A DNA stretch of 16,267 nucleotides from Entamoeba histolytica HM-1:IMSS (taxonomy: Eukaryota; Evosea; Mastigamoebida; Endamoebidae). Below, piece by piece: positions 2,037 to 16,267 of the stretch (its first letter is position 1; each line of letters begins with the position of its first letter). The stretch spans positions 4,398-20,664 of the forward strand of contig NW_001915130.1 in the NCBI RefSeq assembly GCF_000208925.1, in the 5' to 3' direction. A program made the translations under genes and the position numbers. Below the pieces are notes generated by a model. The model was not told the DNA's origin and searched no databases. It saw only the letters and a program-made list of their open reading frames with translations.

Positions 2037-4965
2037 TGGAGGAAGAAATAATAAAACATCAATGGAAAGATAATGAATTAAAAGAAATAATATCAAAAGT
2101 GAACAAGAAAGAAGAAATAGAAGAAGAGGAGGTAATGAAAATATTTAAAGAAGAAGAAAAGAAAGAACAAGAAGATGTCCAATTTATTAACTATTATTAC
2201 AATAAGAAGAAAGTACATCAAATAATTAATATTATTAATAAAAATGAAATAATAATCAATACATTAGATGATTATTATCATTATATTAAATCTGTAGCTT
2301 CAACTATTAACATCATTAATAAAAATAAACAAGAAAGAAGTGGAAAGAAAAGTATAGAAAGAATATTACAATCAAAAATATGTAGATTGAGAGATTTACT
2401 CAATAATAAACAATATATGAAATTAAAAAGAATAATACATATTAAGAAATATGATATATACCATATTAAAATAAAAACAATTGAACAAATAAACTATTAT
2501 AAATACCTCCGAAAGATGAAAAGAATAGAAATAGAAGCAAGAAAGAATAATTTGAAAAGAATAAGATTGAAATATAAAATGATGAAATATGGGAAAAGGC
2601 AACATCTAAATAAGCCTAAAGAAGATGAATATCCAGATAATATCTCACTATTAATTTCTGGAAATGAATCTATGAAACCAACACTAATATAGATTTCCTG
2701 AATATTAATTTATATGAAATATTAATTGAAAATAGAATTAATAATAGAATATCAATAATCACTCCAAATGAACTAGACTGTGCTATTAAATTTACTGCTA
2801 ACTGGAAGGCACACGGTGTTGATAAAATACAAAGATTTTGGATTAAATATTTAGAACAACCAAAGAAGTATTTAATAAAATTATTTAATGAATGGTTGAA
2901 CAATCCTAATGAAATACCTCTTCATTTCATTCAAGGAAGAACAATATTAATATATAAGAAAGGAGATAAATTAGACCCACAGAATTACAGACCAATAACG
3001 TGTTTAATTGTCTGTTAAAAGTGTATACATCAATATTAAAAATGAAAATAGAAAGCCAGCTGATGCTAAATCAAATTGAAAAACAACTCTCATTAAATCA
3101 AATTGGATGTAAAAAATACACATATGCATCAAAAGAAGGATTATTATACATCACTATAATCATTCAATTATTAATAAAGAATAAATGGAAGTGGTAGAAA
3201 GATATTATGACATATCCAAAGCATATGATAGTATTAATCATCAATGGATTAAACAATGTTTAATTTATTTTAATATCCCACTAGCAGTAATTAATAGTAT
3301 ATTATATATTAAATAATACATATCTTAATTTATATTATAATCAAGAAAGTGTAGGTATGATTAATGTAGAAATATGAATAATACATTGTGATAGTTTATC
3401 TCCACTTTTATTTGTATTATCTATTGATATATTATCTAAACAATTAGATAAACAAATAAACAAATTAAATATCAAAATGAATGGAGAAGAAAAACAAGTC
3501 CAGTTAAACCAAATATTGTATATGGACGATTTAAAAATAATGACTAATAGCATCGATGAAATGGAAAAAGCACACAAATTAACTAAAGAAATATTTAATG
3601 CAATAGGATTAAAAATTAATATAGAAAAGAGTGGGATAATGACTAATATTAATAATCAAATAAATGGTGAATTAGCTGAACTACCAAGAGTAACTAATGA
3701 TAACCCTTATAAATATCTTAGTATTGAAATATGAGATAAAGTAAATATTAATAAATATTGTACAAGAATATTAAATTATGTATCTTCTATTCTATCATCA
3801 TTAAATACTATGAAATACAGCAGCCTCAATACAATAAGAAATATTAATAATGATATAATCTCCAAATTAAGATATGGATTTTGTATTGTCAAATATAAAC
3901 TAGGAGAATTGGAGAAGATAGATAAACAAATAAGAAAATCATTGATACAACTCCAATTATATAGTAGAAACATCCCAAAGGTAGATTATATGTTAAAATA
4001 AATGAATTGGGATTAGGATTAATGTCAGCAAGAGATGAATGTGCTAAAGAATTAAGAAGAATATATTTAAAATATAAATATCAAACACAGGAATAGGAGA
4101 AATGATAGATGCAATAAAAGAAAATCCAAATTGAATATTAAAAGAATGAAGAAAGCATTTGGTAAGAAGATTAATTTTAATGAATTAATGAATGTAATAG
4201 AATTAAATGAAAGAAAGCACAATGTAAAGAAAATATTTGAATGGGTAAATAATGAATTAAATGAAAGATATTTAAATGAATGGAAAGAAAAGAAATGTGG
4301 AGAATATATAAGATGTGCAAATGGCACTTTCAATGATAAAAAACTAACAGTAACCACATGGAGGTCATTAAATATAAAAAGAAATGCATTCCTCAAAATA
4401 GTAAAAATGCAAGAAGGAGTAACTATGACAGGAAGTATTAAATCAAAAATACTCCAAAATGATGCTTTAAAATATTGTAAACATTGTCATAACACAATTG
4501 CATCTATTAATCATATCTTGTTAGGATGTAATGAAAAAGAATCAAATATCAAAACATGATTATGTTTGTAAACAAATATATAAACATATATTAATTACCC
4601 ATCTTAATGAATTTGATGCTATCGACTTTAATAATCCTCCTAAATGTATTAATAATGATAAAATGGTCATAACTTACAATAAAGATTTATTGGTTAGTGA
4701 CAATTAATTCAATGATAGAAGACAAGATATATATTAACAAAATATGAAAGAAAAGAAATGATATATTATAGATGTTGTTATATGTCAAGATAATAATTTA
4801 GAATTAAATTATATTCATAAAATAAATAAATACAAAGAATTACAAAAGAAATTAAGAAATAATAGAGAAATAATACATGTTATATTAACAATAAATTGAT
4901 TAATTCACAAAGAGTTAGTAAGGAGATTAAAAACACTGAAATCTTTAAATATAAATGGTTTATAA
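2036..4965 (+). pseudogene. LINE ORF2 remnant: reverse transcriptase plus restriction-like endonuclease
   Basis: The reading frame is broken into several pieces. 2036-2692 is a lysine-rich helical N-terminal domain. About 2689-3018 carries the RT entry region, with KKGDKLDPQNYRPIT, the typical non-LTR 'K.GD..DP.NYRPI' signature. About 3190-3300 carries motif A, reading DISKAYDSINHQWI. 3477-3734 carries the catalytic YMDDLKI box and the downstream GLKINIEKSG motif. Around 4477-4533 a C-x2-C-x8-H-x4-C zinc motif appears. About 4770-4965 resembles the C-terminal restriction-like endonuclease (IDVVICQDNN, then a KINKYKELQ and IHKELVRRLK stretch). RT followed by CCHC and endonuclease is diagnostic of the R2/R4 group. 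At least five frame changes and stops remove function. Confidence 0.85.
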
Positions 4966-4977
4966 CCCATTGTGATA

Positions 4978-5151
4978 GATGACGTCAGCAGTCACAAAAA
5001 TTACTATATTACTTATTGTCACAAATATTTATAGTCACAATTGACCCGAAGGGTCAATAACGCGCTACGCGCGTTTGTGACTATAAATATTTGTGACTAT
5101 AAATATTTGTGACAATAAGTAATATAGGGAATTTTTTGTGACTGCTGACGT
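4978..5151. repeat. Left terminal palindrome, T-shaped (AAV-ITR-like)
   Basis: The outer stem strand (4982-5040) pairs with the inner strand (about 5076-5151). The pairing has one small mismatch patch near 5001-5004 and one extra 16-nt repeat in the inner strand. At the apex are two arms. TTGACCC-GAA-GGGTCAA lies at 5041-5057 and AACGCGC-TAC-GCGCGTT at 5059-5075, separated by one T. The inner strand has GTGAC-headed 16-nt repeats (GTGACTATAAATATTT), candidate Rep-binding iterons by analogy with AAV. The outer strand contains TATTAC at 5007-5012, the same six bases as the conserved end of circular CRESS nick sites, though here in a stem. The foot carries TGACGTCA at 4980-4987; the inner foot is altered (TGACGTGG). 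Confidence 0.9.
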
Positions 5152-5219
5152 GGCAGACACAATTTATAGTAAATAATTAATAGTAAAAATACTATTTATT
5201 ATTATACTTGATATGAGGT

Positions 5220-5247
5220 TATTACTTATTGTCCCAAATATTTATAG
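5220..5247 (+). repeat. Internal copy of the terminal-repeat stem
   Basis: These 28 nt repeat the terminal stem segment at 5007-5034 with a single difference (GTCCC for GTCAC). The copy lies 70 nt inside the left hairpin and includes TATTAC. It directly follows a TATGAGGTT box at 5212-5220. It could be a relic of a recombined terminal repeat or a functional Rep-binding or promoter site. Confidence 0.75.
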
Positions 5248-5254
5248 GTGTTTC

Positions 5255-5384
5255 ACGTATGAAAACGGGATTTCATTCGTAATGAACACCTTGAGTGGAA
5301 CATGTCCAAAGAATAGTTAAATAAACTATTAAGAATAATACTATTCTATTATTTAATGACCCTACCATCTAGATATGGTCATTA
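5255..5384. promoter_or_regulatory. Two inverted repeats in the leader of the first gene
   Basis: ACGTATGAAA (5255-5264) and TTTCATTCGT (5271-5280) form a 10-bp stem with one mismatch around ACGGGA. TAATGACC (5354-5361) and GGTCATTA (5377-5384) form a perfect 8-bp inverted repeat ending 9 nt before the ATG at 5394, resembling an operator or a 5' hairpin. A TATTTAAT box at 5350-5357 overlaps that repeat and is the likely core promoter, 36 nt before the start codon. Function is inferred only from position and symmetry. Confidence 0.45.
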
Positions 5385-5393
5385 GATAGTTGA

Positions 5394-5795
5394 ATGTACG
5401 GAGCAGCAAGCGTTGGAAGGAGAGACGGATTTGACAGCGAAGATGAAACCGAAATTGACAGAAGAAGTATTGTTATCGGAGATTTTATTGATTTACTGAC
5501 AGGTATTGTTGATATCAGTAAACAATGTTCAATATTAAGCGGAGGAGTAGATTTATCCCTTGGAAGAATGCCTTTGAAATACTTTAATATGGTTATTACA
5601 AAACATATCGATGTTATCGATGAATTATACGAAACTATAAATACGTTTAAAAAGAAAAATAAACTTATTATTACAGAGTTGAAAGAAGAAGAGAAAGAGA
5701 AGAGAGAGAGAAGAGAATCAGTGAAGCAGAGAAGAAGAAAGAAGAAGAGACAAAACCAGAGAGAAGAAAAACTAGACCTCTCTAGTTTAATTTAA
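5394..5795 (+). CDS. Small helical protein with basic C terminus, gene 1 of a duplicated pair
   Basis: This 133-residue protein is not recognised from any family. Residues 1-20 are acidic and polar. Residues 25-90 look like an amphipathic helical domain (GDFIDLLTGIVDIS, then KYFNMVITKHIDVIDELYE). Residues 95-125 are almost entirely Lys/Arg/Glu, with runs such as RRRKKKRQ that could serve as a nuclear localisation or nucleic-acid-binding tail. It aligns without gaps over about 45 residues with the protein at 6431-6778 (shared FN, the following hydrophobic pattern and a terminal ERERR-like basic tail), so the two are probable paralogues. It is the first gene inside the left terminal repeat and converges with 5914-6222. 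A small inverted repeat (5769-5788) spans its last codons. An early or regulatory role is a guess. Confidence 0.75.
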   Translation: MYGAASVGRRDGFDSEDETEIDRRSIVIGDFIDLLTGIVDISKQCSILSGGVDLSLGRMPLKYFNMVITKHIDVIDELYETINTFKKKNKLIITELKEEEKEKRERRESVKQRRRKKKRQNQREEKLDLSSLI

Positions 5796-5806
5796 TTTAA
5801 TTAATT

Positions 5807-5846
5807 TTAAAATTTTGTTATTTATTTTTGTTATTCAAAATTTTAA
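5807..5846. terminator. AT-rich inverted repeat between convergent genes
   Basis: TTAAAATTTTG (5807-5817) and CAAAATTTTAA (5836-5846) form a perfect 11-bp inverted repeat with an 18-nt loop. It lies immediately after the stop codon of the + gene and before the 3' end of the convergent - gene at 5914. A bidirectional 3'-end or termination signal is plausible, but mechanisms in this host differ from bacterial hairpin terminators. Confidence 0.4.
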
Positions 5847-5913
5847 AAAGAAAATAATTTGTTATTTAAACAATAAGCAATAATAAAATAAAATAAAAAG
5901 GAATAAAAAGCAT

Positions 5914-6222
5914 TCAATTAAAATGATCAATATCAGGAATATACCTGCCTGAATAAAGCGTATTGAGTAAGAATAAAAGAGGACCACAATCCATAATGGT
6001 GGAATAAATATCCACCATTATGTAGTCGAGCCATTTATTCATTTGGTCCGAGTACTTTAAATGGTATTTATGATCCCAAACTCGGAACCAATAAATTAAA
6101 CCATATAATACTATTTCAGTATTATTATCATTGGCTCGACTGAGTTGGGACTTCACTTCCCTGGCAATAGCCGAGAGTAGTACAGAAAGACGTGTCCTTC
6201 TAAAAGTACCACTAAAAGACAT
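5914..6222 (-). CDS. Small hydrophobic-helical protein, gene 2 of the duplicated pair
   Basis: 102 residues, function unrecognised. The N terminus has a basic patch (FRRTRLS), followed by helix LLSAIAREVKSQL (15-27). A central aromatic-rich block, VLYGLIYWFRVW...YSDQMNKWLDY, spans about 38-67, and a hydrophobic tail contains PLLFLLNTLY (81-90). The block matches the protein at 6854-7129 in order and spacing (LLSxI near the start, then L/I-Y-x-I/L-Y, YSD and a later LL.LL.N), so the pair looks paralogous. A core promoter TATTTAAAC lies at 6253-6245 on the minus strand, 22 nt before the ATG. It is transcribed toward the 5394-5795 gene and shares a divergent promoter region with the 6431 gene. 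Confidence 0.75.
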   Translation of the reverse strand: MSFSGTFRRTRLSVLLSAIAREVKSQLSRANDNNTEIVLYGLIYWFRVWDHKYHLKYSDQMNKWLDYIMVDIYSTIMDCGPLLFLLNTLYSGRYIPDIDHFN

Positions 6223-6430
6223 TGAATGCTAAAATATTATTGCTGTTTAAATAACAAATTAAATGGCTGATATGAGGTAGTATATGAGGTAATGATTGAC
6301 TTTTATACTATACTTTTAATAAAAATATAATATAATAAAAATAAAAAATGTCTGTTTGTCTCTCCATCTGTCTGAATGTCTGTTACATCTTAATATTTAA
6401 ACTGTTGAAGATTGAAAGATGTCATAGCGA
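6223..6430. promoter_or_regulatory. Divergent promoter region with paired TATGAGGTA boxes
   Basis: Two direct TATGAGGTA boxes start 12 nt apart (6271-6279, 6283-6291). TATTTAAAC core elements face both ways: 6245-6253 for the minus gene and 6394-6402 for the plus gene, the latter 28 nt before the ATG at 6431. Bases 6349-6402 also resemble the leader of the minus gene at 7129 (the stretch 7198-7153), including ATGTCTGTTTGT. The boxes are candidates for Rep or regulator binding. Confidence 0.6.
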
Positions 6431-6778
6431 ATGGATACTGACGATAGATTAGAAACTGCAAAAATAGAAAACATCGACATAAGAATATTAAAAGACTACT
6501 TTTTAGACATGGATTGTCTAAAAGATTTTTGTGATGATTTGATTAATTGCTACAAGAAAGAACAAGATTGTTATCTGGAAGATGATAAATTTAATAAAGT
6601 CTTAGAAGAAGAAGCAGAGTTAGTAGAATCTATTTGTGATGTGGCCTCCGATATTAAGAGTAATTATAAAGACGTTTTAGATGCTTTTAAAATAAGAGCA
6701 ACTGAAAGAGAAAGAAGAAGAAGAGTGGAGATATCCAAAGAATTATCCAAGAAGCCAAGAGCTCCAAAAGATAATTAA
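6431..6778 (+). CDS. Small acidic helical protein with basic tail, paralogue of 5394-5795
   Basis: 115 residues with no recognised family. The first 95 residues are acidic and helical (DYFLDMDCLKDFCDDLINC, then DKFNKVLEEEAELVESICD), with six Cys residues overall. Residues 91-110 turn basic (ERERRRRVEIS, then KKPRAPK). Position-by-position it aligns with residues 60-110 of the 5394-5795 protein without gaps, sharing FN, hydrophobic spacing and the basic tail, but only at low identity. It converges on 6854-7129, with about 75 bp of AT-rich sequence between the stops. A TATTTAAAC element 28 nt upstream supports the start. Divergence after duplication is inferred. Confidence 0.75.
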   Translation: MDTDDRLETAKIENIDIRILKDYFLDMDCLKDFCDDLINCYKKEQDCYLEDDKFNKVLEEEAELVESICDVASDIKSNYKDVLDAFKIRATERERRRRVEISKELSKKPRAPKDN

Positions 6779-6853
6779 AATAATTTAATTCTTTTTAATA
6801 TTATTTTGTTTATTAAATAAAAATAAATAAAATAAAAAATAGTAAATTAATTA

Positions 6854-7129
6854 TTATTCCAAATCATTAACGAAATGGAAATTTTCTAATAATTCTAATA
6901 AACCACCCAGTTTATTAAATCGTTGATCCTTAGTGCAAGAATCGACGAAACCTGTAAGGTAATAAAATAAAACATCACTATAATTATAGTGAATCTCCTC
7001 GAATCTCCTCATAAAATAGAGAATAGAATAGATTAGACACTTGGTGTCCAAATCTAAACCATCGCTCTCGAGGAGACCTTTACAGGTTTCGTCGATGTCT
7101 TGCACAATGCTAGACAAGAGAGGGAACAT
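6854..7129 (-). CDS. Small hydrophobic-helical protein, paralogue of 5914-6222
   Basis: The frame is open to 7198 (114 residues), but I place the start at the internal Met giving 91 residues. A TATTTAAAC box (7161-7153, minus strand) lies 23 nt before this ATG, almost the same spacing as in the paralogue at 6222. Homology to that paralogue also begins here (PLLSSIVQDID against VLLSAIAREVK). The 23 extra codons upstream are Cys/Phe-rich and would overlap the promoter. The central block CLIYSILYFMRRFEEIHYNYSD (30-51) matches the paralogue's aromatic segment, and the tail GLLELLENF matches its LLFLLNTL. The function is unknown. It is divergent from rep. Confidence 0.7.
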   Translation of the reverse strand: MFPLLSSIVQDIDETCKGLLESDGLDLDTKCLIYSILYFMRRFEEIHYNYSDVLFYYLTGFVDSCTKDQRFNKLGGLLELLENFHFVNDLE

Positions 7130-7365
7130 CGAATAAAATAAAAAGTATTCCAGTTTAAATAACACATGAAACGTGTAAACAACACAACAAACAGACACTT
7201 AAAGAGGCATTTATAAATTAATTGAATTATAACTTTATTATTCTTTATAGTTTAAAAATCATTTTCTACCTCATACATTACCTCATACAGTCAATAAACA
7301 GACAAAATAGAAAATTCTATACAGAATAAAAAGAAATCTCATTAATCCCACACCATTCAAACAAA
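7130..7365. promoter_or_regulatory. Divergent promoter region between the small minus gene and rep
   Basis: Two TATGAGGTA boxes on the minus strand (7275-7267 and 7287-7279) again start 12 nt apart. The core TATTTAAAC for the minus gene is at 7161-7153. No such core is seen before rep at 7366, where the leader is A-rich. Because these boxes lie next to rep and recur in the neighbouring promoter, autoregulation by Rep or a virus-coded regulator is a reasonable inference. Confidence 0.55.
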
Positions 7366-8799
7366 ATGCAAGAAAACAAAAATAAATACTATGAATTTAA
7401 GAGTATGCATGGATTAGTCACGTTAAACTTAAAGCCTCAAGATAAAATACCAACAGACTCTACATTAAAAAAAGCACTAGAACAGTGGTGTTCCACGAAG
7501 AATAAAGAAGCAAAAATAAAGTACGCTGCCATTAGTAAAACGACAAAGGGAACAAATAAACACGTACACATGTTTTTCCAATTAGAAGAAACAACCCATA
7601 GTAGAAAGAAACCATTTATACAACTAAACAATGAAAAGTATTTTATTAAGTTTGAAAAGATTACAGAAAGTGAACACTACGACGGAAGTATAAAATCTAT
7701 TATAGACTACATTAAAAAACAAAACGTTAAACATCCGAATGATGGTGCAGTATTCAGTGAAATAGGTAAATTAAACTTAGACCGAGGGAGACTTGGAGAT
7801 AGAGATTTGAGTAAAGCATTAAAGATGCCTGATCTTGAAGAGGCACATGCTTATCTAAAAAGTGTAAGTGTTAAAGGATACATGAATAATATAGCAAAAT
7901 TCGATTCGATTTGGATGCAAGAGCATGATAGAGATAGAAACAATCGTATAAGAATCAAACTACAACCATGGAAGGAAGATAATGCATTAGTTAAAAACAG
8001 TAGAATATGGCTAGATTCGGTAATAAAAGGAAATAAAAAAAGAGTTAGAACACTTGTATTAGTAAGTGATACAAAAATGGGGAAAACGGAATTTGTAAAT
8101 GACATGCTTAGAGATTTAAAGGTAGATGAGTTTAGAGGGCATTTTATGTTAGATGGCCACAATGAAAATGTAAGATATGATATTAGATTATTTGATGATG
8201 CCAATTTAAATGATATTACATGGCCAGAATTTAAATCGCTTATAAGTACGAGAGGTGAACAAATTACAATAAACATTAAATATTCACATGTAAAAGTGAC
8301 ATCAATTCCAACAATATTAGTATTAAATCCAGGTAGTTGGAAAGCTCTACAAGAAAGAGCCAAAGAGTTTGAAGACTTCGATTGGATGGAGAAAAATACA
8401 GTAGTACTCCAAACTAATGAGAAATTATATATTGAACCACCACCTAAGGAAGAAGCAGTACGGGATAAAAATAAATATGATGGATTAGATCCTAAATTAG
8501 TTGAAATGCTATTGGAGAATGAAGTTGAAGAAGATGTTAATTTAGATGATATGGGAGATGATACAATAGATGATTTGAATGATATAATAGAAGAATTAGA
8601 AGAAGAAAGCATGCCTCCTCCCATGGTACTTGAAGAGCCAAAGCCAGTAGAAGAAAACAGAGAGAAAAGAAAATCTTTAATATTATCTCTGTTAAAAGAG
8701 AATGATACAGCAATAGTACCACCTAAAGAACCAGATGTTGAATTAACTCAACAAGCTAGAGAATTAGCAAATAGGTGGTTAGGTGGAAATTTTAATTAA
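7366..8799 (+). CDS. rep: CRESS-type replication initiator (HUH endonuclease + SF3 helicase)
   Basis: 477 residues. Rolling-circle or rolling-hairpin initiators nick at the origin, stay covalently bound through Tyr, and unwind. The HUH domain is visible: motif I LVTLNLK (17-23), motif II HVH (66-68), and motif III YIKK with catalytic-type Tyr115 and Lys118. The helicase has a P-loop SDTKMGKT (234-241), Walker B LFDDAN (275-280) and motif C ending at Asn321 (ILVLNP). The first Gly of the P-loop is replaced by Ser. After about residue 355 comes a Pro/acidic tail of some 100 residues absent from most short CRESS Reps, ending in a conserved-looking segment LANRWLGG. Motif order and helicase size favour a CRESS Rep over a parvovirus NS1, although the genome ends look parvoviral. 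It is followed after 36 nt by an unknown acidic protein gene. Confidence 0.93.
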   Translation: MQENKNKYYEFKSMHGLVTLNLKPQDKIPTDSTLKKALEQWCSTKNKEAKIKYAAISKTTKGTNKHVHMFFQLEETTHSRKKPFIQLNNEKYFIKFEKITESEHYDGSIKSIIDYIKKQNVKHPNDGAVFSEIGKLNLDRGRLGDRDLSKALKMPDLEEAHAYLKSVSVKGYMNNIAKFDSIWMQEHDRDRNNRIRIKLQPWKEDNALVKNSRIWLDSVIKGNKKRVRTLVLVSDTKMGKTEFVNDMLRDLKVDEFRGHFMLDGHNENVRYDIRLFDDANLNDITWPEFKSLISTRGEQITINIKYSHVKVTSIPTILVLNPGSWKALQERAKEFEDFDWMEKNTVVLQTNEKLYIEPPPKEEAVRDKNKYDGLDPKLVEMLLENEVEEDVNLDDMGDDTIDDLNDIIEELEEESMPPPMVLEEPKPVEENREKRKSLILSLLKENDTAIVPPKEPDVELTQQARELANRWLGGNFN

Positions 8800-8835
8800 C
8801 TAATTTTTGGTTTATCTTTTATTTTTATTTTTAAA

Positions 8836-9870
8836 ATGAGTTATTGGTATAGACCAAATGTATTAAAACGAAAATGGGGAAGTTATGGAAATATTCATAA
8901 CAATCAATACTATGATAATTATAATGATTATTCATTTAACAATGGAATGAATACTACTTATGATCCAGATAATGGAGAAGATGAATATTTTGAAGAAGAT
9001 GATGTAGATTTACATCCAGATAGTTATCAATCAAATAATTACTTTGATCCAGACAATGAACCAGAAAGAGTAAATAAACCAGACTTGATTAATGAAGATT
9101 ATAGCAAAACAGAAGAATCAATATTTGATGATCCAGATTATGAAGAATATAATAAAGAAATGAATGTTAATGAAGACTCAATTAAAGAAGGAGAAGAAGA
9201 GAATAACAATGATAATGATAACAGTACAAATATATATGAAATAGTAAATCCAAATAAACCAGAAGAAATACTTACATATGATGATAATACACTCAGAATA
9301 TTAGAAGATATAATTGATATTAATGACCCACAACAATTAGGAAATGAATTAGCTATAATTCAACAAGAAATAATAGAAAACAATAATAAATTAGAACAAG
9401 AGAATGATAATGTGGAAGATACTACTATACCATTAATATTAACAAATGAAAATAATGATATAATACTAGCAGATAATGTAGAAGAAGATAAAATACCACA
9501 AATACTTGAAGAAATAAAAGATAAAGCAATGGAAGAAGAAATAGAAATACATAAAGATGAAAAAGAACCAGATAGAAATATTATACCACCTAGACCACCA
9601 AGAGAGAATAGAAATACTATCAAACAATGGATAGATAAAAATAGAGATAACTCAAAACGAAAACATCAATTAGAAGATACTAATGAATATCAAGAAAAGA
9701 GAGATTTTGAACGAGGAATATATTTAGAAGAATTACAACAATTCTTACCAATAGAAGAGAAAGAAGAAAGAGAAGAAGCAATAAATGAAACAAAAATAGA
9801 AATTCCACAAAATGAAGCATTAATCGAAACAGAAGAAGCTCAAAATAATGAATACTTCATTAACGAATGA
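8836..9870 (+). CDS. Acidic, low-complexity protein with N-terminal GSYG motif
   Basis: 344 residues of unrecognised family. The N terminus has a basic-aromatic motif KRKWGSYGNI (11-20), then a Tyr/Asn/Asp-rich disordered stretch. A long Glu/Asp/Asn-rich middle follows, then a Pro-Arg segment PPRPPR (251-256) and a basic patch (NRDNSKRKHQ). The same two landmarks in the same order occur in the minus-strand protein at 11469 (KRRYGSYGSI, PPRPNR), suggesting related minor virion or core proteins. It starts 36 nt after rep and overlaps the next frame by 23 nt. It may be joined to that frame by a frameshift, since the next protein has the same composition and lacks its own spaced promoter. Confidence 0.75.
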   Translation: MSYWYRPNVLKRKWGSYGNIHNNQYYDNYNDYSFNNGMNTTYDPDNGEDEYFEEDDVDLHPDSYQSNNYFDPDNEPERVNKPDLINEDYSKTEESIFDDPDYEEYNKEMNVNEDSIKEGEEENNNDNDNSTNIYEIVNPNKPEEILTYDDNTLRILEDIIDINDPQQLGNELAIIQQEIIENNNKLEQENDNVEDTTIPLILTNENNDIILADNVEEDKIPQILEEIKDKAMEEEIEIHKDEKEPDRNIIPPRPPRENRNTIKQWIDKNRDNSKRKHQLEDTNEYQEKRDFERGIYLEELQQFLPIEEKEEREEAINETKIEIPQNEALIETEEAQNNEYFINE

Positions 9871-10336
9871 AAAATTGGAAAAGAAAAGAGAAGAAAAAGA
9901 AATTAAAAAGCCATTAATTCAAAAGAAAGAACGAAAAGTCAAAGAAGTCAAGAAGAATACTCCAAAAATAACAGATGAAGAACTCTTCGATGACTTAAAA
10001 GAATTGAAAAGAGAATTGAAAAATATCAAAAATAGAATTAGAAAACATGCTAAACAACCATTGCTCTATTCAAATATAACACAAGATATTAATAAAGATA
10101 ACTCTAAAAATATATTACCAGAACAAATTAAACCAATAATAGAACAAGGAGAAGAAGATTTAAGAGTTGAAGACATTCCAAAAGAGTTAACAATAAAAGA
10201 TCAACAAAAATATTGGAATAACTTTAAACATAATGACGAAAACGTTGATGTAAATGAAGGAGAAGAAGAAATAGAACAAGGTATAGAAGAAGTAGAAGAA
10301 CCAGAAATAGAATATGAGTACGAGTATGAGTTTTGA
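9848..10336 (+). CDS. Charged coiled-coil protein, possible frameshift extension of the preceding gene
   Basis: 162 residues. Residues 8-40 are strongly basic (KKREEKEIKK, KKERKVKEVKK). Residues 43-67 look like a coiled coil (DEELFDDLKELKRELKNI), followed by KNRIRKHAKQP. The tail is acidic and ends in alternating Glu-Tyr. It is not recognised. The ATG lies inside the end of the 8836-9870 gene, in the +1 frame, with no core promoter in range. So either the two frames are one protein (about 490 residues) split by programmed frameshifting or by a base error, or this is a downstream re-initiated product. The stop is close before the TATTTAAAC promoter of the 10406 gene. Confidence 0.65.
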   Translation: MNTSLTNEKLEKKREEKEIKKPLIQKKERKVKEVKKNTPKITDEELFDDLKELKRELKNIKNRIRKHAKQPLLYSNITQDINKDNSKNILPEQIKPIIEQGEEDLRVEDIPKELTIKDQQKYWNNFKHNDENVDVNEGEEEIEQGIEEVEEPEIEYEYEYEF

Positions 10337-10365
10337 TAATGTACTCCGAAAAGAGATAAATTGAA

Positions 10366-10374
10366 TATTTAAAC
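10366..10374 (+). promoter_or_regulatory. Core promoter TATTTAAAC for the 10406 gene
   Basis: TATTTAAAC ends 31 nt before the ATG at 10406. A TTGAACTG sequence lies between them at about 10384-10391, similar to the GAAC element known from Entamoeba promoters. Five genes of the element have the identical box at 22-33 nt before their chosen starts. Confidence 0.55.
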
Positions 10375-10395
10375 TATTTATTTTGAACTGTTTAA

Positions 10396-11469
10396 TCATT
10401 CATACATGACAACCATCAAAGACATGATTGCTGACCATGCTATGGGTAAGTTTGTATCTATGGATGCAGATGAACTCATAGACACAATGATCAAATTAGT
10501 AAACTCCATTGAGGAATACACCAAGGAAGATGAATTAAAAGGATTAAAAAAGCCATATTGGAGCTTGGTGTATAGAATAGCCAGAAAGAAAGGCTTAATG
10601 TGGGATAAACCACAGATTAAAAAAGTAAAGACACCAGAAGTACCAAAGAAAGAATACAAAACTAAATTTGTATTAAAAGATAAAAAGAAAGAAGAAGAAA
10701 GTAAACCAAAGAAAGAAGATAATTGATTATTTATTATAATATTTAATGTTTCATTTATTGTTTTAAAATGATTAATTTTATCATCATCAGGTGATACTCT
10801 AAGTAATACTTTTTCATAATCAGTACGATCATCACTTGTTCCCCATCGTTCTAATTGATTATAAACATTCTTCATCATTTCATATTTCTCTTTCCCACTT
10901 TCTATTTTATTAAAATGAGGTTGTTTATGTAAATATTGATATAATCCTCTTCTTTCAAAATCAGATGGTTTAAAGATGGTACCTTTATTATCACTTCTAT
11001 TTGTTCTTGCACCAATATGAATTTTATGATAATAATCTTTGGATGAATGAGTAGTAATAGCTTCTGGTACTAGAATATCTTGCAACTTTTCATATCTTCT
11101 TACTACATTTGGTTCAAATGCAACATCTTCAATTCTCTTCCATAATTCAGGTGGTACTACTCTTCTAATATATGCTTGATTATTATTCAATCGTTCTAAA
11201 TCTTCATCTACATCATTAATCATTTTTCTCTTTCTATGTGTTTGCATTTCATTTAATGTTTCTTTTCTATTTGGTCGAGGTGGAGTATAATACATCCCTT
11301 GTTTATTATTCTGTAATATACCACTCATATACTTAGAAGTATTAAATGGTTTATATTTTGTTTGATTACTTCTTGGTATTCCATCATAATTAAATCGTAT
11401 TGAACCATATGAACCGTATCTTCTTTTATGAAGATTTAATCGTTGTTTTCTCTTCTTAACCAAACACAT
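10396..11469 (-). CDS. Basic protein with GSYG and PPRP motifs; 3' third overlaps an antisense gene
   Basis: The open frame is 357 residues. Residues 1-248 look like a real protein: a basic start (KKRKQRLNLHKRRYGSYGSI, 5-24), PPRPNR at 63-68, a basic patch THRKRK, and then a folded-looking domain (VVPPELWKRIEDVAFEP at 104-120; FKPSDFERRGLYQYL at 166-180). Residues 249-357 run antisense through the whole 10406-10726 gene and are Ser/Phe-rich, like a shadow frame. Either the original stop has been lost or the overlap is genuine. The N-terminal motif is shared with the 8836 protein. It starts 12 nt after the stop of 11706-11482, so the two may form one transcript. Family unknown. Confidence 0.75.
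   Translation of the reverse strand: MCLVKKRKQRLNLHKRRYGSYGSIRFNYDGIPRSNQTKYKPFNTSKYMSGILQNNKQGMYYTPPRPNRKETLNEMQTHRKRKMINDVDEDLERLNNNQAYIRRVVPPELWKRIEDVAFEPNVVRRYEKLQDILVPEAITTHSSKDYYHKIHIGARTNRSDNKGTIFKPSDFERRGLYQYLHKQPHFNKIESGKEKYEMMKNVYNQLERWGTSDDRTDYEKVLLRVSPDDDKINHFKTINETLNIIINNQLSSFFGLLSSSFFLSFNTNLVLYSFFGTSGVFTFLICGLSHIKPFFLAILYTKLQYGFFNPFNSSSLVYSSMEFTNLIIVSMSSSASIDTNLPIAWSAIMSLMVVMYE
10406..10726 (+). CDS. Small basic protein with Lys-rich tail
   Basis: 106 residues, not recognised. Residues 1-50 form an amphipathic helical region (DMIADHAMGKFVSMDADELIDTMIKLVNSIEEY). Residues 50-70 hold KKPYWSLVYRIARKKGLMW, and the last 40 residues are Lys/Glu/Pro-rich and probably disordered. It has its own core promoter 31 nt upstream. 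The composition is typical of the neighbouring genes, so it is likely real. The entire frame lies antisense within the 3' part of the open frame of the minus gene that starts at 11469. A DNA-binding or core protein role would fit the basic tail, but this is a guess. Confidence 0.7.
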   Translation: MTTIKDMIADHAMGKFVSMDADELIDTMIKLVNSIEEYTKEDELKGLKKPYWSLVYRIARKKGLMWDKPQIKKVKTPEVPKKEYKTKFVLKDKKKEEESKPKKEDN

Positions 11470-11481
11470 TAAAATAAAAAG

Positions 11482-11706
11482 TTAATTAGGAATTAAAGTT
11501 TTTACTACTTCTAATACTTCTTCTACTGCATTCATGACATTCCCTTGTCTTCTACTTTCAAAAAATGCAAAGAAACAACTAGCTATTAATAATATACATG
11601 ATAATAGAAGCATGACTATTTTACGAATAATATTCCATGTACTTTCTTTAAACACTTCTTCTGTACATTTAGACGAGTGATTAGAATCACTGGAGTCTGC
11701 ACTCAT
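11482..11706 (-). CDS. Small single-pass membrane protein
   Basis: 74 residues: a polar Ser/Asp-rich N terminus (1-24), one strongly hydrophobic segment IVMLLLSCILLIASCFFAFF (30-49), the positive patch ESRRQ directly after it, and an amphipathic C-terminal helix (VMNAVEEVLEVVKTLIP). The charge pattern would place the C-terminal helix on the cytosolic side. A membrane-active protein for exit or entry is plausible in a virus, but nothing here proves it. It is divergent from 11740-12570 with only 33 nt between the start codons, and its stop is 12 nt before the next minus gene. Confidence 0.8.
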   Translation of the reverse strand: MSADSSDSNHSSKCTEEVFKESTWNIIRKIVMLLLSCILLIASCFFAFFESRRQGNVMNAVEEVLEVVKTLIPN

Positions 11707-11739
11707 ATTATGAATTATTCAGTTCATCTTTATATTCAA

Positions 11740-12570
11740 ATGATCCGTTCTAGAAATAACTGTCCTAATAATACACATGAAGTAGAATTTGTATTTAATA
11801 CCCCAATTGAAGTTAAACTAAATAAAGGAATGGGTGTATATACAACTTCTCTTTTTGATTTACTCTTCAATAACACTAATTATAAATCATTCTGTAATTG
11901 TTTTAAAAGAGTTAAAATATTTAAAGCATTAATTAGTCTCTCAATAGGAGAAATAAATGTAGAAGAAATTGGATTAAATTTTCCTATTGTTAGTACTACA
12001 TGGTTTCCAACATATATTCGTTCCAATATTGATCAAGACACTGCAGATGACAAAGATATAAATAAAGTAATTAATATGATTAATTCAAGTACTCATTTAC
12101 AACAACAAGTCTATTATCCAGGTGGAGCATTTCAAATTAATAGTATTATTAAAGCTATGACATTACAAGAACAAAATTATTATGGACCTACAAGAGTAGA
12201 AGGATATTGGAAATATGATTCACCTGAACTTCAACCATTTACAAATGAAAATGTAAGTATTCCTTTTTATCCATGGTATTTTATAGGAGTAGAAACACCA
12301 AATAACAATGATAATAAAAGTATCAAATTCAATTGTCAATGGTATATCACTGTTCATTTTGATAGATATATTTGCACTCCAATAGAAGAAGAACAAACAA
12401 TGAATTTACTTGATTTAAATGTCAATTTAACCAATGAAGAAATCAAACAAAGAGAAACACTCACATATCAAGCAGAAAACAATTCAGCATATGAAAAAGT
12501 AACTATAGCATTTCCAGAAAAAGAAGAATCTACATTTATTTTAATTATAAAAGATAAACAAATATATTAA
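11740..12570 (+). CDS. Second jelly-roll capsid candidate (CRESS-like)
   Basis: 276 residues from the chosen Met. The frame is open to 11677, but that start lies inside the divergent minus gene, and another ATG is at 11710. MIRSRNN gives a short basic N terminus. The pattern resembles CRESS capsid proteins. There is a helix-like stretch ending FCNCFKRVKIFKALISLSIG (51-70), i.e. 'F..F..vKI...' leading into a beta strand, then FPIVSTTWFPTYIR (81-94). A long central region with GGAFQINSIIKAM follows, then WKYD, and IPFYPWYFIGVE (174-185). It closes with a final strand WYITVHFDRY (201-210). A charged extension of 65 residues follows. The jelly-roll reading is by eye and moderate; a spike or minor capsid role is equally possible. 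Gene 12591 follows after 20 nt. Confidence 0.6.
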   Translation: MIRSRNNCPNNTHEVEFVFNTPIEVKLNKGMGVYTTSLFDLLFNNTNYKSFCNCFKRVKIFKALISLSIGEINVEEIGLNFPIVSTTWFPTYIRSNIDQDTADDKDINKVINMINSSTHLQQQVYYPGGAFQINSIIKAMTLQEQNYYGPTRVEGYWKYDSPELQPFTNENVSIPFYPWYFIGVETPNNNDNKSIKFNCQWYITVHFDRYICTPIEEEQTMNLLDLNVNLTNEEIKQRETLTYQAENNSAYEKVTIAFPEKEESTFILIIKDKQIY

Positions 12571-12590
12571 TTAACTCATTTTTATCATTC

Positions 12591-13370
12591 ATGTCTATCA
12601 TTAACAAGACAACAAAACAAGAAACTTTAATAAGAAAAGATGAAATAAATAAAAATACATTCAAAGTAACAGTGAATACAGATGATATAACTATCGAAAC
12701 AACTACAAATGGAATAACAACATTCACCAGTGAAAATTACATTGACAGTATTCAATTAATCACTCAAGTACCTGAACCAAAAATCCAAACAAAAGCAGTT
12801 ACTATTACTGAAAACGGTTCATACACTATCAGTCCAGATGATAATCTTGATGCACTTGATCATGTTTATGTCACTACAAATGTACCACAATATAAAATAG
12901 ATTCTTTAAAGGTATATCAAAACGGTACTTTTACAATAGTAACAGTAGCACCAGAAATAATAAATGTCACAGAACATAACACCGATATTACAGACCTAAT
13001 AGAAGCAGATGCAAAATTACACAAATTCACAAGTAACTCAGAAACTTATGACTACTTAAGAATTACAGAAAAAGGAAATTATCAATATATAGTATTTAAA
13101 TTTAATGTAGTCAATGGTTTATATGTATCAGAAATAGAAATAAACACTCCTGCTGTTACAAACAAATATACAATAACATATATATTAAAATTAAATACAG
13201 AAGGTGCAGCAAATAATGGTATTCTTTATTTTTGTAAAGGAACAACTATAGAAGAAACAACCGCTCTACTTTGTTATAATTCGGAATATGCTCGTACTGA
13301 AGAGGGTAAGCAAGACCCTGCAATAATACTATACTCATCTCTACTTTCAGAAAACTTCCCAATAAAATAA
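12591..13370 (+). CDS. Beta-rich fibre-like protein with phage-tail-type repeats
   Basis: 259 residues, Thr/Asn/Ile-rich. About residues 68-98 contain VTITENGSYTISPDDNLDAL followed by DHVYVTTNV, a close match to the 'TVTITENGTY.V.PDEGYDGLSKVTVTVNV' repeat widely seen in tail and baseplate proteins of phages of Firmicutes and in bacterial surface proteins (from memory). Half-repeats flank it: NYIDSIQLITQV at 49-60 and LKVYQNGTFTI at 106-116. The C-terminal 120 residues look like a separate beta domain, perhaps the receptor-binding head. There is no signal peptide or membrane segment. It ends 10 nt from the convergent capsid gene. A host-attachment fibre is the natural inference, possibly acquired from bacteria or their phages. 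Confidence 0.65.
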   Translation: MSIINKTTKQETLIRKDEINKNTFKVTVNTDDITIETTTNGITTFTSENYIDSIQLITQVPEPKIQTKAVTITENGSYTISPDDNLDALDHVYVTTNVPQYKIDSLKVYQNGTFTIVTVAPEIINVTEHNTDITDLIEADAKLHKFTSNSETYDYLRITEKGNYQYIVFKFNVVNGLYVSEIEINTPAVTNKYTITYILKLNTEGAANNGILYFCKGTTIEETTALLCYNSEYARTEEGKQDPAIILYSSLLSENFPIK

Positions 13371-13380
13371 TTCAATTAAT

Positions 13381-14904
13381 TTAAGCACTAATAAGTTTTT
13401 GGTTATCATTTGAAAACAATCCAGTAACAAATGTTTTACTAACAAGTACAACTGGATTCAATACTCCACTTCCAACTGTTCCAGTAGCAACTGGTAATGC
13501 ACCTGAAGCAATAGTAACTGCCGTATCTTCAGCTGTTCCACTATAAGCATATAAAAGAGATCCAACTACATCAGTTGATGAACCAGTAGTAGTTTTAACA
13601 TTAATTTTAACTTCTGAATTAGCACCAGTAGAAGTATCAGGTAAGTTAATTCCATAAATATCAAATACATTACTTGCAATAACATAAGTATCAGCATCAG
13701 TTGAAATAGTAACAGTATGTGCATTAGTATTAGCATTACCAAATAAATAAGCAGATATATTATATCCTTTTACTCCAGCACCAAGAGTACCAGCAGTAGC
13801 AAATACAACTAAACGTACTCTCATAACACTTGAACTACCTCCACTAATAGTTAAACTTTGAGCATTTTGTGATGGTTGTTCTATAGCAATTTGATCAAAA
13901 TTCAAATCCATAGCATTAACTTGTGAAATTCCTGCATTATAAAATATATTATTCAAATACATTTTAAATGAATCAATAGTCCAAGTATTAGAAGAAGAAG
14001 ATAGTTGTCCTCCTGTTGTTTGTACCATTGAAGTATAAATTGGATTTTCAGTAGTAACAACACCACCATTGTTAGTTGTAGTCATACTAACAGGAATCAT
14101 TGCATTATTTGTACCTGATGCAACTGTACCAGCATTAGTATTAGCATAACCAAGTGAATTAGCAGCAGGTGTTGGAATAACATCAAGTGTACTTTTTCTC
14201 AATCCTCTAAGTGAAACAACCCATGACCATGTTAAATTAAATACAAGTGTTTGACATGTAGCTGTTTGATTTCCTAAAAGAACAGAAAGTAAGAAATCAG
14301 GATTCCATGCTGCATATAAAGTAGATTCAGTTAATACTTCAGCAGTCTTTACTGTTGGAAGATAAATACTCTTCTCTTGTAATGAAGATGCAACAAGTCT
14401 TCTTGTAATACCCCATCTAGCTCCTGGATAATATGCTCTACTTACTGCACTTGAATATGAACTCACTTGATAAGGACCTGGTACTATTGGTACATTACTT
14501 AATACACCTTGTCCTTCTTGTGTTACTTGACTTGCTACTGCTTTATCTATACCATTTCTATCCCATGCAGTGATAACATTAGGAAATGTCATTGCAGCTT
14601 GACCAAATGTATTGTAAACAATTTCAGCTGACACTGACACTCCATCTATTTTAAATTGATCATACATTCCAGCATAATGTTGGAAGAATTCCGTGCCGCA
14701 AAGTAATTTAGTAACATTTCTAACAGTTGTAGCACCATTAGTATTTGCTGGAATAGCTAATTGTACTGTTTCAGTAGCATTCAACACTACTTGAGTTGAA
14801 TCTCTTTGTTGAAAAGCAGCTTTTAAATTCCCAGCCATAGTACTTCTTAAATTTCTTCTCGTTGAAGTTGGTCTAGTAGCCGTGGCTCTTCTTGTACGTC
14901 TCAT
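13381..14904 (-). CDS. Major capsid protein candidate, CRESS-like single jelly roll with long C-terminal extension
   Basis: 507 residues. The N terminus is Arg-rich (MRRTRRATATRPTSTRR), typical of ssDNA virus capsids that bind packaged DNA. Residues 60-235 follow the CRESS capsid pattern: EFFQHYAGMYDQFKIDGVSV (72-91), strand VSAEIVYNTF, FPNVITAWDRNGID (107-120), ARWGITRRLVASSLQEKSIY (162-181), AAWNPDFLLS and a final strand VFNLTWSWVVSLRGLR (221-236). Residues 240-507 are Ser/Thr/Asn/Gly-rich and beta-prone, probably a projecting domain, making the protein about twice as long as a circovirus capsid. Composition is less AT-rich than in its neighbours. A TATTTAAAC promoter lies 33 nt upstream. 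No signal peptide is seen. Confidence 0.8.
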   Translation of the reverse strand: MRRTRRATATRPTSTRRNLRSTMAGNLKAAFQQRDSTQVVLNATETVQLAIPANTNGATTVRNVTKLLCGTEFFQHYAGMYDQFKIDGVSVSAEIVYNTFGQAAMTFPNVITAWDRNGIDKAVASQVTQEGQGVLSNVPIVPGPYQVSSYSSAVSRAYYPGARWGITRRLVASSLQEKSIYLPTVKTAEVLTESTLYAAWNPDFLLSVLLGNQTATCQTLVFNLTWSWVVSLRGLRKSTLDVIPTPAANSLGYANTNAGTVASGTNNAMIPVSMTTTNNGGVVTTENPIYTSMVQTTGGQLSSSSNTWTIDSFKMYLNNIFYNAGISQVNAMDLNFDQIAIEQPSQNAQSLTISGGSSSVMRVRLVVFATAGTLGAGVKGYNISAYLFGNANTNAHTVTISTDADTYVIASNVFDIYGINLPDTSTGANSEVKINVKTTTGSSTDVVGSLLYAYSGTAEDTAVTIASGALPVATGTVGSGVLNPVVLVSKTFVTGLFSNDNQKLISA

Positions 14905-14937
14905 TTATTTCAATAACTCAGTTGAATCTAAATTGGA

Positions 14938-14946
14938 GTTTAAATA
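14938..14946 (-). promoter_or_regulatory. Core promoter TATTTAAAC of the capsid gene
   Basis: On the minus strand TATTTAAAC lies 33 nt before the ATG at 14904, the same box and similar spacing as in four other genes of the element. It resembles the TATA-like element of Entamoeba genes, which have very short 5' leaders. Confidence 0.6.
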
Positions 14947-15043
14947 GTTGAAGCTTATTTGATACATAATATATGATGGATAATGATATCCTGTATTAAA
15001 ATGATGTATAAACCCGTAAGAAATTAAATAATCGTTTTAGTCG

Positions 15044-15123
15044 TAATCATAAGGTGAAGAGGATCACAGTAACACAGTGAATGGGATGACTGAACCTGAT
15101 TATGATTAAAAAAGATTTTTAAT
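15044..15123 (+). other. Two adjacent hairpins in the non-coding right end
   Basis: In the 300-nt non-coding stretch between the capsid promoter and the right hairpin, TAATCATAAGGT (15044-15055) pairs with ACC-TGA-TTATGATTA (15094-15108), leaving a 3-nt bulge. It encloses a small TCAC/GTGA hairpin. Directly after, sharing a few bases, ATTAAAAA-AGA-TTTTTAAT (15105-15123) forms a perfect 8-bp stem. This could be a small structured RNA, a packaging or replication signal, or a 3'-end signal. No RNA family is recognised, and no open frame is supported in 14947-15205. Confidence 0.4.
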
Positions 15124-15205
15124 GCTAAAAGGGTCGTAAACTCCCATTATCAATACATACACTCACAATATCATTAATCCATTATACATTGATTAAACTG
15201 TATTT

Positions 15206-15385
15206 GATGACGTCAGCAGTCACAAAAAAATTCCCTATATTACTTATTGTCACAAATATTTATAGTCACAATTGACCCGAAGGGTCAATAACGCGCTACG
15301 CGCGTTTGTGACTATAAATATTTGTGACTATAAATATTTGTGACAATAAGTAATATAGGGAATTTTTGTGACTGCTGACGTCATC
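15206..15385. repeat. Right terminal palindrome, T-shaped (AAV-ITR-like)
   Basis: The feet are perfect: GATGACGTCAGCAGTCAC at 15206 and its complement ending at 15385. The apex has the same two arms as the left copy, TTGACCC-GAA-GGGTCAA followed by AACGCGC-TAC-GCGCGTT. The arm order and the strand carrying the extra 16-nt GTGAC repeat read in the same direction on the + strand as in the left palindrome. So relative to the interior the two ends are in opposite (flip and flop) configuration. Here the long strand is on the outside, the reverse of the left end. TGACGTCA occurs at both feet. Confidence 0.9.
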
Positions 15386-15620
15386 TATCACAATGGGTTA
15401 TAAACCATTTATATTTAAAGATTTCAGTGCTTTTAATCTCCTTACTAACTCTTTGTGAATTAATCAATTTATTGTTAATATAACATGTATTATTTCTCTA
15501 TTATTTCTTAATTTCTTTTGTAAATTATATTTATGAGGATTACTAAAATCAATTGAATCAAATTCATTAAAATATGTAATTAATATGTTTATATATTTTT
15601 AATATTTATGTTTTGATATT
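15386..15620 (-). mobile_element. 5'-truncated LINE 3' tail, inverted relative to the left LINE
   Basis: Read on the minus strand this repeats the end of the left LINE. 15386-15523 matches 4977-4840 with one mismatch seen by eye (near 4933). Then about 200 bp of the left copy are missing, and 15524-15620 matches roughly 4545-4650 with clearly lower identity. The LINE end joins the hairpin foot at exactly the same base as on the left. It encodes part of the endonuclease domain only and cannot be functional. Confidence 0.8.
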
Positions 15621-16267
15621 ATTTAAATGGGGTACGAAAATAAGCAAAGAAATAATGCATCCAAATAAATTACAAAAAAGAAAAAAGATGCAAAAAAATT
15701 TGCATCCATAGAATTTTCCATTTATTATATTTTGCTCCTAACAAATAAAAATAAAAAATAAAAAGTATTATAAATACAGAATATGTATATATTTATGTTT
15801 ATATTTTATAATCATTTGTATTCATTTTGTATGAAATATTAATGAAATAGATGATTTGATGAATCATATTTAATTATTTTTATTCTTTTTATTCTTTTAT
15901 TATTATGTTATTTATCTATCGTATTTTTATATATTTATTTTTATATTTATTTCTCTGTTTATATTAGTTATATCTTTGTATTCTTCTTATTATCTATATA
16001 TTATTATATTATTTTTATGTTTATATTCTTTAGATTTTCTTATTGTTATTCTTTTATATTTAAATGTATTTTATTATTTGAATATTCATCTTTATCATTT
16101 TTATATTATTATCATTTATATCTATTTTCATTTTATATTTATTCTCTTTTGTTTTATATTAATATTAATTTTATCTTTTATACTTTGATTTTATTATTAT
16201 ATCATTGATTATCATTTCTCCTTTTATTTATCATTTATTCTTATTATTCTTTTGTTTTATATTCTAT
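15621..16267. other. AT-rich intergenic DNA, no gene seen
   Basis: The plus strand is mostly T/A with TTATT and TTTTAT runs; open frames here are low-complexity Phe/Ile/Tyr/Leu strings and not credible genes. The only structure noted is a perfect 8-bp hairpin GATGCAAA-AAAA-TTTGCATC (15687-15706), with GCATCCA present at 15657 and again at 15702. Confidence 0.6.

Follow-up and report, generated by a model that had tools for sequence, protein, structure and literature searches.

What kind of element lies in a 16,267-nt stretch of the Entamoeba histolytica HM-1:IMSS genome (hereafter the window), which is part of the 20.7-kb contig C123? The initial annotation, made from the letters alone, had placed a T-shaped palindrome towards one end of this stretch, a matching structure at the other and a CRESS-type Rep between them. 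The triosephosphate isomerase of this genome is identical to PDB chain 1m6j, an E. histolytica structure, over residues 5-260, in keeping with a host that is this species or a close relative. A circular genome is a defining feature of CRESS viruses. T-shaped inverted terminal repeats with repeats in their stem, occurring in two orientations, together with an HUH-SF3 Rep and rolling-hairpin replication, are features of AAV. Our best reading is that positions 4943-15420 of the window are an integrated copy, slightly or partly damaged, of a virus-like element 10.5 kb long.

Two T-shaped hairpins and the limits of the element

We folded both palindromes as DNA and compared each with 200 dinucleotide shuffles. 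The left one (4978-5155 in this calculation) had a minimum free energy of -68.9 kcal/mol against -14.9 kcal/mol for its shuffles (s.d. 2.6; z about -20), and the right one (15206-15389) had -80.4 kcal/mol against -14.4 kcal/mol (s.d. 2.9; z about -23), with 0 of the 200 shuffles matching the fold energy in either case. Both large T-shaped palindromes of the window are thus real, the left at 4978-5151 with the two short arms and 3-nt loops that the initial annotation had described, and the right at 15206-15385, where it had seen the other end closed. The apex of the left hairpin carries an 8-bp arm with the loop GAA (5040-5058; ATTGACCC-GAA-GGGTCAAT) and a 7-bp arm with the loop TAC (5059-5075; AACGCGC-TAC-GCGCGTT), and that of the right hairpin an 8-bp arm with the loop GAA (15271-15289) and a 7-bp arm with the loop TAC (15290-15306). 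The arms are directly adjacent, or alternatively can be drawn as 7 + 7 bp with one base between them. On one side, the stem has 16 extra nucleotides, a single copy of a TTGTGACTATAAATAT repeat unit, and this imperfection of the palindrome makes its orientation legible. Counting both strands, the window has 14 copies of TTGTGAC, seven in each hairpin and none elsewhere.

A strict scan, which called for two arms, each perfectly paired over 7 bp or more, with loops of 3-4 nt, no more than 2 nt apart and enclosed by a stem in which 15 or more of 20 positions pair, identified five T structures in the 139,346 bases scanned, a count that is not genome-wide since these bases were chosen for holding or flanking such elements. 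The five are the left and right ends in C123 (the window), the left and right ends in C69 and the right end in C174, and all of them terminate Rep-bearing elements, although the Rep gene of C174 is broken. No structure was found by the scan in 30 block-shuffled copies of the window. The initial annotation had considered that the palindrome might prove to be a dispersed repeat unlinked to Rep; the hairpin query matched only four places, both ends of C123 and both ends of C69, and both contigs carry Rep.

The right end of C174 has the T geometry of the window with a different apex sequence, its outer stem being truncated by the contig end. Over a 48-nt apex stretch picked by hand, it differs from the C123 apex at 10 positions, all within five fully compensated pairs, and 21 of 21 apex pairs are Watson-Crick in both contigs; random placement of the 10 differences gave full compensation in 1 of 200,000 cases. 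The compensated changes could have been templated by one arm, or could stem from template switching or recombination, and recombination or one-arm templating would still require the arms to pair or recombine. The hairpins also differ in orientation when read from the outside inwards, the right one of the window being opposite to the left. The left end of C123 resembles the right end of C123 and both ends of C69 more closely in inverted (92.2-94.5%) than in direct orientation (80.8-83.6%), and these three resemble one another more closely in direct (95.0-96.6%) than in inverted orientation (78.8-80.9%), the two C69 ends being 100% identical over 179 nt. Such opposed orientations correspond to the flip/flop pattern of rolling-hairpin replication, as in parvoviruses, but the inversion could also come from recombination within the palindrome.

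Outside each window hairpin, about 35 more bases are shared, comprising a 26-nt terminal sequence and the stem base, which extends the element to about 4943-15420 (10,478 bp). The left terminal sequence, CTTTAAATATAAATGGTTTATAACCC (4943-4968, plus strand), is the outermost sequence common to the group A ends that are neither lost nor truncated by a contig end, and terminal-sequence comparison places its inverted copy at 15395-15420 on the minus strand. A 25-mer, CTTTAAATATAAATGGTTTATAACC, which begins about 35 nt outside the hairpin, was searched for in the genome (17.0 Mb, 392 contigs) and occurs with up to three mismatches at seven places, all of them element ends (two in C123, two in C189 and one each in C69, C48 and C11), as compared with one place for the reversed control; in this search, the right ends of C69 and C174 are truncated by the contig end. 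Beyond the 25-mer, the flanks are of two kinds. At both ends of C123 and of C189 and at the left end of C69, a LINE-like repeat adjoins with its 3' end; C48 and C11 have a second flanking sequence, present at full length in no other contig among the matches listed. Since the flanks differ beyond a shared terminal 25-mer, we place the limits of the element near 4943 and 15420.

The left flank in the window (4400-4942, plus strand) comes from the 3' end of a repeat that is abundant and dispersed, with at least 39 other places at 89-92% identity among the matches listed, and it stops at the element terminus. The repeat is most likely a LINE, judging from an ORF at 3477-3734 that we take to be RT-like on the strength of its motif. 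The right flank (15421-15629, minus strand) is an inverted, shortened copy of the same 3' end, followed by an AT-rich (86%) dispersed repeat (15630-16267) that occurs in at least 37 places besides C123, C69 and C189 and lies in inverted copies in C11. This AT-rich repeat is possibly the terminal inverted repeat of ERE1, an Entamoeba repeat that is likewise AT-rich (82%) and has 2,221-bp terminal inverted repeats around a core with a 369-aa ORF (PMC2657916).

At the left of the window lie a tRNA-Leu (CAA) gene on the minus strand (168-249) and a second tRNA truncated by the window start (1-56). The window copy is probably integrated, because dispersed repeats and the tRNA-Leu gene lie to its left. 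The LINE-like repeat joins the same terminal nucleotide with its 3' end at both ends of the element in C123 (4942-4943 and 15420-15421), as would be expected if a free 3' end of viral DNA had primed reverse transcription; a fixed target site of the repeat would also yield identical junctions. The AT-rich repeat abuts internal viral sequence at an identical repeat boundary (window 15630) in C11 (L057:1173-1174) and C142 (L058:1429-1430), as if it had been added onto broken ends.

Coding content and the affinity of Rep

The element encodes a 477-aa Rep (7366-8799, plus strand) with HUH endonuclease and SF3 helicase regions. In the alignment of seven Reps from the relatives, which occur on 14 contigs of the genome, H66 and H68 (HxH), Y115, GKTEF, DD and N321 are invariant, and we take these residues to be the HUH and SF3 motifs. 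Among solved structures searched with Foldseek, the Rep model matched the Rep of Vientovirus FB best (E 1.7e-8, 14% identity), a virus that presumably belongs to the redondoviruses, whose genomes are circular. The fold matches also include B19 NS1, AAV Rep and CRESS Reps, with low TM-scores (mostly 0.2-0.3 by query); among the viral ones, CRESS Reps lead and parvovirus NS proteins appear from rank 34. The model has low confidence around Y115, with residues 100-143 scoring under 50. In Pfam, no family exceeded its cut-off for Rep, and up to an E-value of 1 neither Rep nor the capsid-like protein matched a parvovirus domain. The claim of a CRESS-type Rep between the hairpins is borne out by the alignment and the fold matches. 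CRESS stem-loop origins carry the nonanucleotide NANTATTAC; it has six matches in the window as compared with 6.9 expected by chance, none of them in either hairpin.

On the minus strand, 13381-14904 encodes a 507-aa protein with an Arg-rich N-terminus, a low-confidence model and no significant Pfam family match, which might be a capsid protein. This capsid-like gene is intact in five contigs at 92-96% identity to the window copy, with dN/dS reaching 1.45 in one pair; for Rep, dN/dS is 0.10-0.14 among C123, C69 and C189. The remaining genes comprise small ORFs in the left region 5394-7198 (5394-5795 and 6431-6778 on the plus strand, 5914-6222 and 6854-7198 on the minus strand), of which 5394-5795 and 5914-6222 gave nothing over the Pfam cut-off; a plus-strand gene at 8836-10336, split into two overlapping frames of 344 and 162 aa and present as a single 505-aa frame in C69 (4913-6430); a minus-strand frame at 10396-11469; and two plus-strand ORFs without assigned function (297 and 259 aa) at 11677-13370. 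The frame at 10396-11469 spans an indel site with 124 nt in the window (11209-11332) versus 871 nt in C69. The split gene and this difference from C69, together with Rep matches in C239 that carry up to 15 stops, indicate that old and young copies coexist.

Relatives with other ends

The relatives are not uniform in their ends. Of the ten folded ends or palindromes, five have T arms. The right end of C189 is a long hairpin without two clean arms and the left has lost its hairpin, that of C48 right is plain with a 4-nt loop, C11 has lost its apex and C142 contains an unrelated palindrome. Outside the hairpin site, C189 has flanks that match each other in inverted orientation (99.6% over 265 nt), and near both contig ends of C11 lie inverted copies of a dispersed repeat (96.9% over 1,186 nt). 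The contig comparison covered matches of 100 nt or more, the palindrome search covered palindromes scoring at least 22, and the cross-comparison covered matches between contigs of 80 nt or more, its findings holding among the matches listed.

A second set, group B, consists of C49, C72, C82, C86 and C88, contigs of 14.4-16.8 kb whose Rep is 24-26% identical to that of the window. These contigs have inverted repeats of 2.0-2.1 kb in C72 and C88 and of 0.9-1.2 kb in the other three, where contig ends limit them. Each inverted repeat contains a perfect 54-nt palindrome (10 of 10 copies), centred on CCGG in nine and on ACGT in one, in which the palindrome is still perfect. The 1.5 kb of repeat outside the palindrome was found, among the matches listed, at 10 places with 98-100% identity, all on the five group B contigs (six at full length, four cut); the next match is 84% over 178 nt, followed by many weak AT-rich ones.

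Several further observations were made on the relatives. In C82 (L042:1632-2402), a deoxynucleoside-kinase-like gene (Pfam dNK, E 4e-11) is present, which we regard as unusual for a Rep-type ssDNA virus, and C88 has an ORF of similar appearance (L046:2421-3149). Several pairs of group B contigs (C72, C82, C86, C88 and C49; L040-L049) are more than 92% identical on the capsid side and about 69-80% identical on the Rep side, an inequality that, at the level of sequence, suggests module exchange. C48 (L050:1-1828) contains the left part of the element duplicated head-to-head in inverted form, with arms 96.5% identical over 654 nt and, among the matches listed, no strong hairpin at the centre; it may recall the dimer forms of rolling-hairpin replication, or may be a rearrangement. 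In C142 (14629-15141; L058:1430-1942), the start of a capsid-like gene (98% to the window) is followed by a different palindrome and then by a Rep reading away, among the matches listed, an arrangement that would be the order of a circular CRESS genome.

Replication and the place of the element among ssDNA viruses

We lean slightly towards a linear molecule whose T hairpins serve as replication ends that Rep opens and nicks, the TTGTGAC repeats being its binding sites. In such a scheme, the single-stranded ends of the element would fold into the T hairpin, and the 3' end of the folded hairpin would prime synthesis. Rep would bind the TTGTGAC repeats in the stem, its helicase would open the stem and its single tyrosine would nick it, so that the end could be copied. 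Copying would invert the hairpin, as in the rolling-hairpin replication of AAV. The likeness to AAV and other parvoviruses comprises the terminal palindrome of T shape, whose two short arms carry 3-nt loops, the possible Rep-binding repeats in the stem, the two orientations and the HUH-SF3 Rep. At both element ends, however, 26 nt lie outside the palindrome, which argues against a simple AAV-type end; such an end is not known to have sequence outside its palindrome. A simple version of the reading is also opposed by the five of ten folded ends or palindromes without T arms, by the plain palindromes inside the group B inverted repeats and by the inverted repeats that C189 and C11 carry beyond or near their hairpin sites. 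The element also differs from parvoviruses in a Rep most like CRESS Reps, with no parvovirus domain among its Pfam matches, and in size: its 10,478 bp compare with parvovirus genomes of about 4-6 kb.

A wider and more tentative proposal is that a CRESS-type virus lineage of amoebae exchanged its circle for a linear T-hairpin genome with rolling-hairpin replication, reaching the AAV solution independently, and that its larger relatives on 14-17-kb contigs carry long inverted repeats with plain palindromes. Some copies of the family being bounded by T hairpins hints that such viruses may also have linear genomes, which might be encapsidated. The initial annotation had left open whether a hairpin-ended lineage acquired its ends independently or stands between CRESS viruses and parvoviruses. 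The AAV-like T geometry at both ends fits the hairpin-ended part of this proposal, and convergence fits better than an intermediate, which finds no support: no parvovirus domain was among the Pfam matches of Rep and the capsid-like protein up to an E-value of 1, and CRESS Reps lead the viral fold matches, although parvovirus NS proteins follow from rank 34.

Four other explanations were weighed. The element could be linear but end physically beyond the hairpins, in long terminal inverted repeats, with the palindrome acting as an internal origin or resolution site. This is how the five group B contigs look, with their 0.9-2.1-kb inverted repeats and a 54-nt palindrome in every copy, and inverted repeats continue past the hairpin in C189 and C11 as well. 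We nevertheless consider it unlikely for the window element: the end sequence shared within group A stops about 35 nt outside the hairpin, C123, C69 and C189 differ from C48 and C11 beyond that point, and the outer sequence of C123 consists of dispersed repeats. A circular CRESS virus or plasmid, in which the hairpin is the origin and the inverted ends arose by integration and recombination, appears quite unlikely. Two inverted hairpins bound the element in C123 and C69, NANTATTAC is absent from both window hairpins and matches the window at chance level, and 10.5 kb far exceeds the size of the Entamoeba and Giardia circles. On its side are the circular-genome order of capsid-like fragment, palindrome and Rep in C142 and the results of PMC7493932, in which 18 of the 20 CRESS sequences associated with Entamoeba or Giardia were shown to be circles.

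Inverted ends and Rep matches on 14 contigs would also be expected of a DNA transposon with viral genes, its hairpins being binding sites of a Rep that acts as transposase, and virus-derived repeats with Rep are in print (PMC3198968). The mixed hairpin orientation, the capsid-like gene kept intact in five contigs and the lack of any transposase match in a Pfam scan of 10 window ORFs make this explanation improbable. An assembly artefact or a chance palindrome is the hardest to credit and has almost no probability: palindromes often break assemblies, and C69 and C174 do end in a hairpin, but both ends are present in two contigs, a third has a different yet compensated sequence, and the fold z-scores lie below -20.

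The preferred reading, a linear element with T-hairpin ends, can be set beside systems already described. Naryaviridae and Nenyaviridae, two CRESS virus families of Entamoeba, share with the element the host genus, a Rep with a capsid or capsid-like gene, and integration into the genome, and differ in that their genomes are described as circles with a nonanucleotide origin (PMC7493932); the main text of that paper uses neither "hairpin" nor "inverted repeat". Integrated ssDNA-virus elements with comparable ends are a parvovirus-like element of the acorn worm with a 5' hairpin and a geminivirus-like element of the truffle with 37-bp terminal inverted repeats (PMC3198968). The same source tabulates 14 Rep-like sequences for E. 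histolytica, and a CRESS-type Rep between two T hairpins was not found among the ssDNA-virus elements in the part consulted. No report of T-shaped or hairpin ends in these elements was found in the main texts of openly accessible journals that we searched.

Rep-like genes and CRESS viruses in Entamoeba are already known, and what appears to be new is a CRESS-like Rep in an element that ends in AAV-like T hairpins. The findings suggest that the long-known Rep-like genes of Entamoeba partly belong to large elements with a capsid-like gene. A step from a circle to a linear hairpin replicon is often assumed in the origin of parvoviruses. If our reading is true, a CRESS-type Rep bounded by AAV-type hairpins shows a route from a circular replicon to a linear hairpin replicon, and Entamoeba would offer a protist system in which this transition can be tested.
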